This document shows, piece after piece, positions 1,401 through 45,651 of a stretch of 51,847 nucleotides of DNA. The DNA comes from Pseudomonadota bacterium (GTDB taxonomy: Bacteria; Pseudomonadota; Alphaproteobacteria; Acetobacterales; Acetobacteraceae), in assembly GCA_021801465.1 (NCBI GenBank), contig JAJYXY010000146.1:1-51847 (forward strand). The letters run 5' to 3'. The notes under the pieces are model-generated. The model worked only from the letters and a program-made list of their open reading frames with translations, was not told the origin of the DNA and searched no databases. The translations under genes were made by a program, and so were the position numbers. Position 1 is the first letter of the stretch. Every line of letters begins with the position of its first letter.

Positions 1401-1435
1401 AAAAGTTTTTTGGTTCTTTTTTTCAAAAAAGAACC
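1401..1435 (-). repeat. Dispersed A/T hairpin element, copy 1 (downstream of the BLUF gene)
   Basis: + strand aaaagttttttggttctttttttcaaaaaagaacc; same core as copies at 19851, 28111 and 45545. Confidence 0.85.
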
Positions 1436-19850: not shown

Positions 19851-19883
19851 AAAAGTTTTTTGGTGCTTTTTTCAAAAAAGAAC
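19851..19883 (-). repeat. Dispersed A/T hairpin element, copy 2 (downstream of trpE)
   Basis: + strand aaaagttttttggtgcttttttcaaaaaagaac; one stem mismatch relative to copy 1. Confidence 0.83.
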
Positions 19884-26853: not shown

Positions 26854-28095
26854 ATGGGAGATTATATCTCGGTAACCGGCAGCGACGGCGCGGCGTTTCA
26901 AGCCTATCGCGCCGTGCCGCGTGCGGGGTCGGGGCCGGTGGTCGTGCTGCTCCAGGAAATTTTCGGCGTCAACGCCCATATGCGTGAGGTCGCCGATTTC
27001 TACGCCGAGGAAGGCTATGTCGTGCTCGCGCCCGACCTCTTCCGCCAGTTCGCGCCGGGCATCGAGCTTGGATACGACGAGGCGGGACTGAGCCAAGCCT
27101 TCGCCTATTACGAGAAATTCGATATCGCGCGCGCGGTTGCCGATATCGAGGCGACTGTCCGCCTTGCGCGCACGCTGCCCGAGGCGCGCGGCGTGGGCGG
27201 CAAGCCGCAGGTCGCGGCCCTCGGTTTTTGCCTCGGCGGCAAGCTCGCCTATCTCGCCGCGGCAAAGGCGGGGGTTGACGCCGCGGTTTCCTATTATGGC
27301 GTCGGGATCGAAAAATCTCTGTCCGAGTCAGCGAAAATAACCTGCCCGATGGTGCTCCACTTCGCCGGCCACGACCGCTTCACCCCGCCCGCCGTGATCG
27401 AGACGATCCGCACCCATTTCGCCTCTCGGCCCGAGATCGAGATTTTTCTCTATCCCGACGCTGATCACGCGTTCAACCGCCCCGGCGCGCATTTCCACAA
27501 ACCCTCCGCCCTGATGGCGCACACGCGCACGCTCGCCTTGCTCCGCCGCGTGATGGGCCCGCGTTATGATCTCTCGGCGCTATGGGACAAGCATTGCGAG
27601 TATGAGTTCGCGACCCGCGACGTCGATGCAACCATGTCGACCATGGTCGCCGAGCCCTATGTCAACCATATCCCGACCATGACCGGCGGCTACGGCCATC
27701 GCGATCTCCATCGGTTTTATAAAAATCATTTCGTTTTCAGCAATCCCGACGACACCAGGCTGGTGCCGATCTCACGCACCATCGGCGTCGATCGCGTGGT
27801 CGACGAGATGCTGTTCTGCTTCACCCACGACCGCGAGATCGACTGGATGCTCCCTGGCATCGCGCCAACCGGGAAATATGTTGAAGTGCCGCTGATCGCG
27901 ATCGTCAATTTTCGCGGCGATCGGCTCTATAACGAGCACATCTATTGGGATCAGGCCTCGGTCTTGGTGCAGATCGGCCTTCTCGATCCGAAAACGACGC
28001 CGGCCGTCGCCGGCGCCGAAACGGGGCGGAAATTGCTCGACCCCTCGCTGCCATCAAACACGCTGATGCCGAATTGGGCGAAATCGGCGCCTTGA
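26854..28095 (+). CDS. Dienelactone hydrolase fused to C-terminal SnoaL/NTF2-like domain
   Basis: DLH: VVLLQEIFGVNAHMREVADFYAEEGYVVLAPDLF, GFCLGGKLAYLAA, HFAGHDRFTPP, YPDADHAFNRPG; C-terminal ~130 aa (GGYGHRDLHRFYKNHFVFSNPDDTRLVPISRTIGVDRVVDEMLFCFTH...) resembles NTF2/SnoaL. Confidence 0.82.
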   Translation: MGDYISVTGSDGAAFQAYRAVPRAGSGPVVVLLQEIFGVNAHMREVADFYAEEGYVVLAPDLFRQFAPGIELGYDEAGLSQAFAYYEKFDIARAVADIEATVRLARTLPEARGVGGKPQVAALGFCLGGKLAYLAAAKAGVDAAVSYYGVGIEKSLSESAKITCPMVLHFAGHDRFTPPAVIETIRTHFASRPEIEIFLYPDADHAFNRPGAHFHKPSALMAHTRTLALLRRVMGPRYDLSALWDKHCEYEFATRDVDATMSTMVAEPYVNHIPTMTGGYGHRDLHRFYKNHFVFSNPDDTRLVPISRTIGVDRVVDEMLFCFTHDREIDWMLPGIAPTGKYVEVPLIAIVNFRGDRLYNEHIYWDQASVLVQIGLLDPKTTPAVAGAETGRKLLDPSLPSNTLMPNWAKSAP

Positions 28096-28110: not shown

Positions 28111-28142
28111 GGTTCTTTTTAAAAAAAGAACCAAAAACTTTA
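28111..28142 (+). repeat. Dispersed A/T hairpin element, copy 3 (downstream of the DLH fusion)
   Basis: ggttctttttaaaaaaagaaccaaaaacttta on + strand, 15 nt after the stop codon. Confidence 0.85.
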
Positions 28143-28218: not shown

Positions 28219-28530
28219 CTACGACCTCAGGGCGCTGATCTGCATCATCGGCGTGATGTCGGTGTAGTTCGGGACATCAGCCATGATTTCCTTCGCGTGC
28301 GGGTGAAAGGCCGCTTGGAAGGATTCCACGCTGTCGAAATAGAGGTGCGCTGCACCGACAAAAGGGGGAGGTGCGCCCGGCGCGCCGCCCGCCATACCTT
28401 CGTCGATTTCGGTTTTCTTGAGCGCCGCGCCAAGCTTGTCCCGCACCATCGGAATATGCTTGCTCGCGTAATAAGTCATGTCGAAACGCTTGTTTTCGCC
28501 ATGCGGATAAAGAACACTGACCTTGATCAT
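28219..28530 (-). CDS. EthD family protein
   Basis: MIKVSVLYPHGENKRFDMTYYASKHIPMVRDKLGAALKKTEIDEGMAGG...FVGAAHLYFDSVESFQAAFHPHAKEIMADVPNYTDITPMMQIS. Confidence 0.9.
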   Translation of the reverse strand: MIKVSVLYPHGENKRFDMTYYASKHIPMVRDKLGAALKKTEIDEGMAGGAPGAPPPFVGAAHLYFDSVESFQAAFHPHAKEIMADVPNYTDITPMMQISALRS

Positions 28531-33489: not shown

Positions 33490-35475
33490 TCAGGCGGTGA
33501 TATCGAGGCTGGTCTTGAGCGAGGACGATGCGGCGGGCGCGATCACGCTGGCGCCAGGGTTTGTTCCCCCAGGATTTGTTCCTCCAGGGTTTGTTCCCCC
33601 TGGGCCAGCCATGGCGCGGGGCGCGCGCTGGCCGGTGGGCTGACCTCCGCCACCGTGACCCGCCGCGCCGAAGCCAGCCCCCGCAAGAAGCGCGCCAGAG
33701 CCACTGGCGGCATTGGCTTGGGTATTGGCTTGGATATTGGCTTGGGCGTTGGCGGCGGCATTGCTCTCGGCACCGGCATGGGAGAAATCGGCCCAGGATG
33801 GCGGCGCTTTGCCACCAGAATTGCCGTCGGCACCATTGCCTGCGCTGTTGGCTTGAATGCTGGCGGTGGCTTGGCCGACGCCCGCGGTCGCGGCGCTCGC
33901 GCGATGTGCGCTGCTCGCCGATGTCGGGGCGAGATGAAAGCTCAGCACGCGGCCGGCGGTTGCGACGCCGGCGCGATCGAGGGCGGCATGCAGCTGCCCC
34001 TGGTCTTGCACCAGGGCGGCAAGTGTTGCCGGGCGCTCGGCAAGAATTTGCACTTGCGCCGGCCCGGTTTTCGGCTGGACCAAGGCAATCTGCACGCGGC
34101 CGAGGCTTTCGGGATGGAGCTGCACCGTCAGCTGTGCCGCGCCATTCGTATCTTGGGCGAAGGCAGCAAGGGCGGCCGGGGCTTGGCTCGTGATCTGGCT
34201 CGTGATCTGGCTCGTGATCTGGCTGGTGATCTCGGCGCTTGCAGTGGCGGGCCTCGCCGCGGCAGTGCCCGCCGAGGCGCCGAGAGCGGTTGCCTGCGCG
34301 AGAAGGAGCGCGCTCGCCCCGCCGGCTGCGCCATTCGCTCCCGATGGCGCCGCGCCGGCTGATGATGTCGCGGTGGCGATTTTCGTCGCCCCATGCGCCG
34401 TTGCCGTCTGGGTGCTCGCCGCCGGGCTGGCCGATGCGGGCGCCGCTCCGGCGGCGTCTGGCGCATGCGCCGTGGCCCCGGCGGGTGATCCGGACGCGGT
34501 TCTGGCTTGGCCTTGCGGTGTGGCTGAAGCACTAATTGGCGGGTTGGGTGCGTTCTCGCCGATATGGCTCGGGCTTTGCGCGTTCTCATGCGGTGGCGCG
34601 ATGTTTGGCGCGGCGGTGGTTGGTGGCGGTGCGTTAGAAGCTTGGGCATCAGATGGCGGCGCGCGCGGGGCCTCTGCCGTGGCGACGATGCGCGGCTTGC
34701 GCCCGGCGGCCACATCGCCGATGGCACCGGCCTCACTCAGGGCTTGTGAGGTCGGTTGCGTCGCTTTTGGCGGTGTGGCCGCTTGCGCGGAGGAAGGCGG
34801 TGTCGGCGTCACGACGAGCGGAATCGCCGCGGGCAGCGGTGCGGACGCTGCCGCGATCGAGGGAGTGCTCGCCGGAGTCGTTTTGGCCGTGTTGTCCGCC
34901 TGTTTTTTGGCGGTGGTATCGTTCGCCGCGGTATTTCGTTTTGCGGACGCGGCGATCGAGAGGGCATTGACCGAAGGCTCTGCACCCACTGCCTCCCCCT
35001 CTAACCTCCCCAATGGGGCTTCCAATGGGGCTCCCAATGGGGCTCCCAATGGGGCTTCCTGTGAGGCTTCCTGTGGGGCGGAAGCTTCGGGAGGGGCAGG
35101 TCGTGAGGCGTTGGCCGGAGGATTGGACGGCGCTTCCGTTATTTTCGGGGCGGCCGCTTGCGTGGTGAGCGCGGCAGTTTTTGCCGCCGGCGGGGGGAGC
35201 ATATTTTGCTCCCCGGTAAGCTTGGCATCTTGGCTCGGAACGCTCGTCTTGAGCGTGACCTGTTTTGCCAAGGGGAGGGCCGCTATTTGCGCCTGTTTTA
35301 GGTGGCTTACGAAATTCGCTGGTGCCGCGTCCGTCTCCGTCCCACGCGCAGCAGCGGTAAGCGTCGCCAGAGCGGCCGCGGCAGGCGGCGCGCTGGCGTT
35401 GCTCGCTGTGACCACCGCGCCAGAGGGCAGTGGGAGCGTTGGCAGGGAAGACAAGAGCGTGGCAGCCGGCGGCAT
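33490..35475 (-). CDS. fliK: Flagellar hook-length control protein FliK
   Basis: Ala/Pro-rich linker with C-terminal FliK core NGAAQLTVQLHPESLGRVQIALVQPKTGPAQVQILAERPATLAALVQDQGQLHAALDRAGV. Start MPPAATLLSSLP at 35475 fits the candidate sigma-54 site at 35524-35539. Confidence 0.9.
   Translation of the reverse strand: MPPAATLLSSLPTLPLPSGAVVTASNASAPPAAAALATLTAAARGTETDAAPANFVSHLKQAQIAALPLAKQVTLKTSVPSQDAKLTGEQNMLPPPAAKTAALTTQAAAPKITEAPSNPPANASRPAPPEASAPQEASQEAPLGAPLGAPLEAPLGRLEGEAVGAEPSVNALSIAASAKRNTAANDTTAKKQADNTAKTTPASTPSIAAASAPLPAAIPLVVTPTPPSSAQAATPPKATQPTSQALSEAGAIGDVAAGRKPRIVATAEAPRAPPSDAQASNAPPPTTAAPNIAPPHENAQSPSHIGENAPNPPISASATPQGQARTASGSPAGATAHAPDAAGAAPASASPAASTQTATAHGATKIATATSSAGAAPSGANGAAGGASALLLAQATALGASAGTAAARPATASAEITSQITSQITSQITSQAPAALAAFAQDTNGAAQLTVQLHPESLGRVQIALVQPKTGPAQVQILAERPATLAALVQDQGQLHAALDRAGVATAGRVLSFHLAPTSASSAHRASAATAGVGQATASIQANSAGNGADGNSGGKAPPSWADFSHAGAESNAAANAQANIQANTQANAASGSGALLAGAGFGAAGHGGGGQPTGQRAPRAMAGPGGTNPGGTNPGGTNPGASVIAPAASSSLKTSLDITA
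33554..33598 (-). repeat. 15-bp in-frame tandem repeat (3 units) in fliK
   Basis: ccagggtttgttccc / ccaggatttgttcct / ccagggtttgttccc; encodes (GGTNP)n. Confidence 0.93.
33712..33759 (-). repeat. 12-bp degenerate in-frame tandem repeat in fliK
   Basis: attggcttgggt / attggcttggat / attggcttgggc / gttggcggcggc; encodes (A-N-x-Q)-like repeats NAQANIQANTQAN. Confidence 0.88.
34185..34235 (-). repeat. 12-bp in-frame tandem repeat (about 4 units) in fliK
   Basis: ggctcgtgatct repeated; encodes ITSQITSQITSQITSQ. Confidence 0.93.
35012..35083 (-). repeat. 12-bp in-frame tandem repeat (4 good + 2 degenerate units) in fliK
   Basis: aatggggcttcc / aatggggctccc / aatggggctccc / aatggggcttcc / tgtgaggcttcc / tgtggggcggaa; encodes APLGAPLGAPLEAPLG. 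Confidence 0.93.
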
Positions 35476-35523
35476 GCGAAGACCCTTTCGCGCTGGCCGA
35501 ATGGGCGCAGCTACCAACCTCAA

Positions 35524-35539
35524 CGCAAATCCCGGGCCA
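35524..35539 (-). promoter_or_regulatory. Candidate sigma-54 (RpoN) -24/-12 promoter for fliK-flgD
   Basis: Minus strand TGGCCCGGGATTTGCG: GG-N10-GC spacing, close to TGGCACG-N4-TTGCW; about 50 nt upstream of the fliK start. Confidence 0.65.
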
Positions 35540-35742
35540 AGTGCCGCACGCGGTGAAACCATCGCAAAAAGCCGGGAAACGGGCTCCCTGCCGGGACGGT
35601 TTACCGCGCACGGCAAACCTTGCCGGGTCATCCTTGCCGGGCGGCGGGACATGCCTTGCTCGCCCGAGGGAAATTACTCACCCCGCCGGCAGCGGCATGG
35701 GCTTTTGCGCCTGCGTCTCGCGCTTTTGGTGGATCGCGCATC

Positions 35743-45544: not shown

Positions 45545-45577
45545 GTTCTTTTTTGGAAAAAAGAACCAAAAAACTTT
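45545..45577 (+). repeat. Dispersed A/T hairpin element, copy 4 (downstream of lspA)
   Basis: gttcttttttggaaaaaagaaccaaaaaacttt, 5 nt after the lspA stop. Confidence 0.87.
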
Positions 45578-45613
45578 CTCCCGGTCGCGGTGGCGCCACC
45601 CCAAGGAACGGGA

Positions 45614-45651
45614 CAAAAGTCTTTTTGCTTCTTTTTCTTCAGAAAAAGAAG
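45614..45651 (-). repeat. Dispersed A/T hairpin element, divergent copy 5, inverted relative to copy 4
   Basis: + strand caaaagtctttttgcttctttttcttcagaaaaagaag; same architecture (hairpin plus CAAAAAGACTTTT tail on the minus strand). Confidence 0.8.

Follow-up and report, generated by a model that had tools for sequence, protein, structure and literature searches.

Are the short A/T hairpins that follow several genes of this Acetobacteraceae contig signals that end transcription, stabilisers of the 3' ends of messengers, or copies of a mobile repeat? We have analyzed this question in the window, that is, the whole stretch of 51,847 nucleotides, and then in the complete set of contigs of the same genome and in other genomes and phages. 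The original prediction, made from the letters of the window alone, described four copies of one compact element and left all three roles on the table.

Copies in the window

The sequences of the four copies were checked, and their coordinates and strands are as originally described. The upstream genes were identified by Pfam and their stops taken from codon-model gene calls, and they agree with the genes named before (BLUF-domain, TrpE, DLH-domain and LspA). The unit at 1401-1435 (-) is a lone copy of what we call class I, with the hairpin GGTTCTTTTTTGAAAAAAAGAACC at 1412-1435 and the tail AAAAAACTTTT at 1401-1411, and is found 66 nt past the stop of the BLUF-domain gene. The one at 19851-19883 (-), 19 nt past the trpE stop, is also lone and of class I but degenerate, with a mismatch in the lower stem (GTTC/GCAC) and without the leading G. 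At 28111-28142 (+) another lone class I unit occupies the convergent gap between the DLH-domain gene (26854-28095, +), whose stop is 15 nt away, and an EthD gene (28219-28530, -). The copy at 45545-45577 (+), 5 nt past the lspA stop, consists of a class I hairpin and the tail CAAAAAACTTT, and is the left half of a larger structure. A fifth unit, overlooked by the earlier reader, faces it at 45616-45651 (-) and belongs to a second sequence class, with the hairpin CTTCTTTTTCTGAAGAAAAAGAAG at 45628-45651 and the tail CAAAAAGACTTT at 45616-45627. Between the two inward tails there is a GC-rich core (45578-45615), the whole forming a doublet at 45545-45651. Rfam gave no match within the window. Apart from the elements, a long gene at 33490-35652 (-) had a codon-usage score of 32.7 over ca. 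660 codons, far below its neighbours, and was perhaps recently acquired.

Architecture of the unit

The genome to which the window belongs (G000, 2.81 Mb in 311 contigs) contained 82 exact matches of the pattern GTTCTTTTTN{0,8}AAAAAGAACCAAAAA and none of the reversed pattern used as control, so that the existence of a family beyond chance, as first proposed, is confirmed. Alignment of all 82 copies gave a hairpin with a T6/A6-7 upper stem, the tail CAAAAAACTTTT and a purine-rich box on the 5' side. A unit therefore has three parts, namely a purine box (approximately AAGGAAGR), an A/T hairpin whose lower stem is interchangeable, and the conserved tail CA6CT4, which is unpaired. The composition of the purine box was equal with or without an upstream stop codon, indicating that the box is part of the element. 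All lower-stem positions were paired in 96% of 532 units versus 50% after shuffling the 3' arms, a signal that derives mostly from two main classes, and compensated variants included GTTC/GAAC, CTTC/GAAG, TTTC/GAAA, CTGC/GCAG, GCTC/GAGC and CTCC/GGAG among others. Two clostridial carriers, G390 (e.g. L182 7647-7681 and L435 1501-1535) and G559, had the additional lower-stem variants GTAGCGC, GTTGCGC and GGGGGC over an unchanged upper stem and tail, which suggests lineage-specific subfamilies.

The predicted folding energy of the lone hairpin was -9.1 kcal/mol. The tail is almost invariant even though the model leaves it unpaired. In the sense direction it reads A6C followed by T4, so the remark that it is not the U-tract of a textbook terminator was correct. 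The alternative stem TTTTTTG/CAAAAAA that had been drawn for some copies is possible on paper, but the predicted fold is the main hairpin. We also dropped an outer stem between the purine box and CTTTT, predicted by RNAfold for the copy at 1401-1435, since it gave 4.62 contiguous pairs against 4.69 with shuffled partners.

Facing doublets

Beyond many copies lies a GC-rich stretch and then a second A/T hairpin, CTTCTTTTTCTGAAGAAAAAGAAGCAAAAAGACTTT, on the opposite strand. These doublets are two mirror-image units with the CAAAAAACTTTT tails directed inward over the GC-rich core and the hairpins some 66-90 nt apart. When neighbouring pairs within 150 nt were collected from six sequence sets (n=163), 152 were facing inward, 11 were back-to-back and none had the same direction. 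The spacing of the hairpins was modal in each genome, 65-68 in G368 and 69-72 in G124; in G000 and its congener G001 the main mode was 88-91 and a second one 71-75. Cores resembled each other within a genome, with identities of 0.60-0.74 versus 0.52-0.58 when shuffled. Within a genome no covariation was detected between the inner arms of individual doublets. The facing arrangement, the modal spacing and the within-genome similarity of the cores indicate that the doublets behave as a replicated composite unit and not as terminators of independent origin.

Orientation and gene context

The fixed polarity relative to upstream genes that was claimed at first holds in the window, where the four copies then listed are all co-directional with the upstream gene, but not genome-wide. 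Nearly all copies are intergenic. In G000, by codon-model gene calls, a co-directional stop was found upstream of 61 of 80 copies at a median distance of 16 nt, and in the complete genome of G001 a same-strand stop preceded 64 of 88 copies at similar distances, many of the opposite-strand cases being the second halves of doublets. In tandem gaps, lone units numbered 60 in sense and 38 in antisense over all sets (ca. 39% antisense; binomial p 0.033), lone units and doublets having been sorted by a simple pattern, so that decayed doublets may count as lone. By set the ratios were 19:6 in G000, 12:9 in G001 and 1:8 in the viral contigs. Hence the orientation of lone units is biased, not fixed. 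It had been proposed that random orientation together with no compensatory changes in the stem would speak against the idea; what we found was a bias in the former and compensation in the latter.

Occupation of gaps of at least 40 nt was very different by type in G001, where the element was present in 37% of the convergent gaps, 11% of the tandem gaps and 1.7% of the divergent ones (Fisher p 6.6e-8 for the convergent enrichment and 1.2e-5 for the divergent depletion). The values for convergent, tandem and divergent gaps were 48, 34 and 26% in G368 and 23, 14 and 11% in G124. Divergent gaps being filled in both, these high-copy genomes also tolerate the element in promoter regions.

The 3' ends of stable RNAs (RNase P RNA, 6S RNA and nearly all tRNAs) showed no association with the unit. 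Specifically, there was none within 120 nt of the 3' end of RNase P RNA in 9 genomes or of 6S RNA in 10 genomes, and a single tRNA in the G001 sample had a unit 3' of it, in antisense. This is a tRNA-Gly (L253 6948-7000), where ATTTTTT comes directly after the hairpin as in a textbook terminator. The antisense side of the unit is pyrimidine-rich in many copies. Outside the elements, hairpin-plus-U-tract sites of the G001 sample (L247-L306) were found at 78 per 100 kb past stops versus 66 per 100 kb in sense coding sequence, a hint that textbook intrinsic terminators are of little importance to this genus.

Filled and empty junctions

For nine tandem junctions that hold the element and measure 109-258 nt, we found adjacent orthologous genes in other genera that are separated by -4 to 30 nt without it. 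The comparison is across genera and places the insertion within the junction, short of its exact boundaries. The clearest case is the junction in L203, 140 nt long with a doublet, compared with 7 nt in L039 of G000, the coding flanks matching. Two other apparent empty sites, one in G001 and one in the window, were gene-call artefacts and were removed. In tandem doublets the median distance was 11 nt from the stop to the hairpin and 32.5 nt from the hairpin to the next start, which means that the doublet occupies almost the whole gap. Since long filled junctions match tight empty orthologues, the element seems to insert where the genes of an operon are closely spaced.

Once in place it persists. 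Between G000 and G001, with a median protein identity of 93%, mapped sites still had the element in 20 of 20 and 18 of 21 cases (38 of 41 together); of the other three sites, one held a decayed copy, one had an internal deletion between T-runs and one was a divergent gap that could not be aligned. Neither a target-site duplication nor a recent insertion was caught at these 41 sites, and the cross-genus empty sites were too diverged to show a duplication. The hairpin and tail were 91% identical in place, compared with 74-82% for the adjacent non-coding flanks. This suggests selection on the element itself, and may reflect some function, gene conversion among copies, or both.

Distribution

With the generic pattern the unit was found in 54 of 200 Acetobacteraceae genomes, at 1 to 1036 copies each, including Acidiphilium sp. 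PA, Roseomonas sp. GC11, Gluconacetobacter liquefaciens and Rhodovarius crocodyli. When the class I pattern alone was applied to a 190-genome sample of the class, the genome of the window was the sole match. Outside the phylum, and taking the bin labels as given in the records, there were 165 copies in a termite-gut Oscillospiraceae bin, 11 in another bin that carries spoIIGA and 6 in a rumen Bacteroidales bin. In the class of the Oscillospiraceae bin, carriers were 5 of 291 genomes, one of them by a single irregular match. In phage contigs doublets adjoin terminase, portal and tail-sheath genes, and a Microviridae record from cattle blood (MG945182.1 5908-5941; L432 669-702) has an exact match of 34 nt to the unit where no gene is annotated. 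The ends are identical in Acetobacteraceae, Clostridia, the Bacteroidales bin, the phage contigs and the microvirus. In partial coverage of the published work we found nothing on this repeat sequence.

Search for a mobilising enzyme

Strong matches to RAYT proteins (NF047646) were present in 9 of 23 carriers versus 1 of 21 non-carriers. The Pfam Y1_Tnp model had given few matches and is insensitive; the search with a RAYT protein altered the count and not the conclusion. Four carriers with 184-469 copies each (G147, G319, G361 and G084) had no RAYT match. In G124 (which has several RAYT copies and fragments), G343 and G368 the RAYT genes are flanked by ordinary GTAG-tagged palindromes (such as GTAGGGTGGGGTGC...GCACCCCACC), and not regularly by the A/T unit. 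These GTAG palindromes (also e.g. GTAGGGTGGGGTGCTCTTCCGCACCCCACC), seen near the RAYT genes at loci L404, L406, L416, L418 and L422, are an ordinary REP family separate from the A/T unit. Beside the A/T hairpin itself neither a GTAG nor a CGTC tag is found, one side being the tail CAAAAAACTTTT and the other the purine box. The element is not a RAYT/GTAG REP. In the sequence sampled, ten proteins encoded between facing ends were ordinary enzymes or members of uncharacterised families, none of them a transposase, and we found neither a recurrent protein adjoining the elements nor a parent insertion sequence sharing their ends.

Discussion

The architecture, the copy numbers, the filled versus empty junctions, the vertical retention, the compensation in the stem and the sharing across phyla are direct observations. 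In our view the element is probably the end unit of a REPIN- or MITE-type mobile repeat, miniature and interspersed, with a sequence family of its own. Among the roles put forward in the original prediction, the REP-like mobile repeat is the best supported because of the inverted doublets at fixed spacing, the patchy copy number (0-1036), the insertion into tight junctions and the identical ends in different phyla; a terminator or 3'-end stabiliser would be possible only as a secondary effect. The element looks like mobile DNA and not like a purpose-built stop signal. The full form would be the facing doublet, lone units being remnants or one-ended copies. Dispersal would be due to a putative enzyme recognising the hairpin and the tail, and copies would build up in gene junctions, typically some 5-25 nt past the stop codon, to be kept afterwards by vertical inheritance. 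As part of the 3'-UTR of a single transcript or of two, the element could affect termination or messenger stability weakly in either orientation. A weak, bidirectional and secondary transcriptional effect may exist, and this is the upper limit of what can be said. Several findings count against a mobile repeat: no transposase was found between the facing pairs sampled, several high-copy genomes are without RAYT, no duplication or recent insertion was caught, and conservation in place is above that of the flanks. In addition, the 3'-end bias in G001 exceeds what plain insertion tolerance might give.

That bias is one of the points in favour of a lineage-specific bidirectional intrinsic terminator. 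An A-rich tract, the hairpin and a displaced U-tract (A6C and then U4) would stop sense transcripts, the pyrimidine-rich complement of the purine box would stop antisense ones, and the element would have spread because it is functional. The short distance to stop codons in G000 and G001, the conservation in place, the presence of the purine box in any context without covariation with the T-tract, the lack of enrichment of ordinary hairpin-plus-U-tract sites at gene ends in G001 and the maintenance in phage genomes all fit this explanation. Against it, nearly all the stable RNAs inspected do without the unit, lone units have mixed orientation and high-copy genomes fill divergent gaps almost as often. 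An identical sequence across phyla would be unexpected, the sequence of a terminator being free to drift. Moreover, where genes abut or overlap in other genera, doublets take up the gap between their counterparts and leave scant room for a new promoter; in these operon-like junctions an efficient terminator would usually deprive the next gene of transcription. On balance we regard the terminator as unlikely to be the primary nature of the element. Much less likely is membership of the RAYT-mobilised REP/REPIN family proper, which the extragenic inverted doublets with fixed spacing, as in REPINs (PMC3116915), and the greater frequency of RAYT among carriers would favour; the missing tag, the attachment of the RAYT genes to other palindromes and the high-copy genomes without RAYT tell against it. 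The least credible reading of all is a DNA-uptake signal, of the kind that Neisseria and Haemophilus have in terminators in the form of inverted pairs, in spite of the resemblance of short repeated 3'-end palindromes to uptake-signal terminators (PMC1852404). Compensated variation such as that of the lower stem is not a trait of an uptake word, and arm 9-mers outside elements in G001 numbered 42/210 compared with 71 for reversed control words; with this lack of excess of single arms outside hairpins we rejected the uptake signal.

A bolder version of the mobile repeat is possible, though we hold it as rather doubtful. Mobile palindromic doublets crossing phyla (Acetobacteraceae, Clostridia, Bacteroidales, phages and a microvirus) would be moved by a putative non-RAYT enzyme that recognises the A/T hairpin and the unpaired CAAAAAACTTT tail, and would insert at or beside stop codons, parting overlapping operon genes without killing either. 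If the element is mobile, its 80 to more than 1000 copies per genome and its ends common to at least three phyla and phages would imply a copying or transposition enzyme that has yet to be tied to a repeat and that strikingly prefers the space directly 3' of stop codons. Mobility would also account for one class of recurrent short spurious ORFs, and would advise caution in annotating such hairpins as terminators. Some high-copy carriers have culturable relatives (Acidiphilium, Roseomonas and Gluconacetobacter), which makes both mobility and transcriptional effect testable.

Several known systems can be compared with this element. Intrinsic (Rho-independent) terminators, including bidirectional ones, share with it a hairpin soon past stops, A-rich and T-rich sides and a high frequency in convergent gaps, but here the first 6-7 nt past the hairpin are A6C and not U, the sequence is conserved across phyla and ca. 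39% of lone tandem copies are antisense. The uptake-signal terminators of Neisseria and Pasteurellaceae (PMC1852404) are also repeated inverted pairs at 3' ends, and differ in that no single-word excess is found here outside hairpins in the congener. REPINs, or BIMEs, are inverted doublets of REP (Bertels and Rainey, 2011; PMC3116915), and REPs associated with RAYT have an unpaired GTAG or CGTC tag at one end (PMC3733652). Like them, the element is a many-copy extragenic palindrome (82 copies in its own genome and up to 1036 elsewhere) in which inverted doublets are over-represented, with conserved spacing, a less conserved spacer and singlets that can be read as remnants. Unlike them, its A/T hairpin bears the unpaired tail CA6CT4 in place of the tag, no cognate RAYT gene flanked by the repeat was found, and it crosses phyla; the layout is that of a REPIN, yet the tests of REP/RAYT membership run here were negative. 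As to bacterial MITEs (reviewed in PMC10969869), the element departs from them in that each end is itself a hairpin and no same-ended parent insertion sequence was found in the sequence sampled. It resembles them in its length of ca. 110-150 bp (MITEs being below about 400 bp), in being non-coding, located between genes and patchy in copy number, in its terminal inverted repeats, the purine box, hairpin and tail of one end mirroring those of the other, and in its empty sites, represented by the nine filled and empty pairs.
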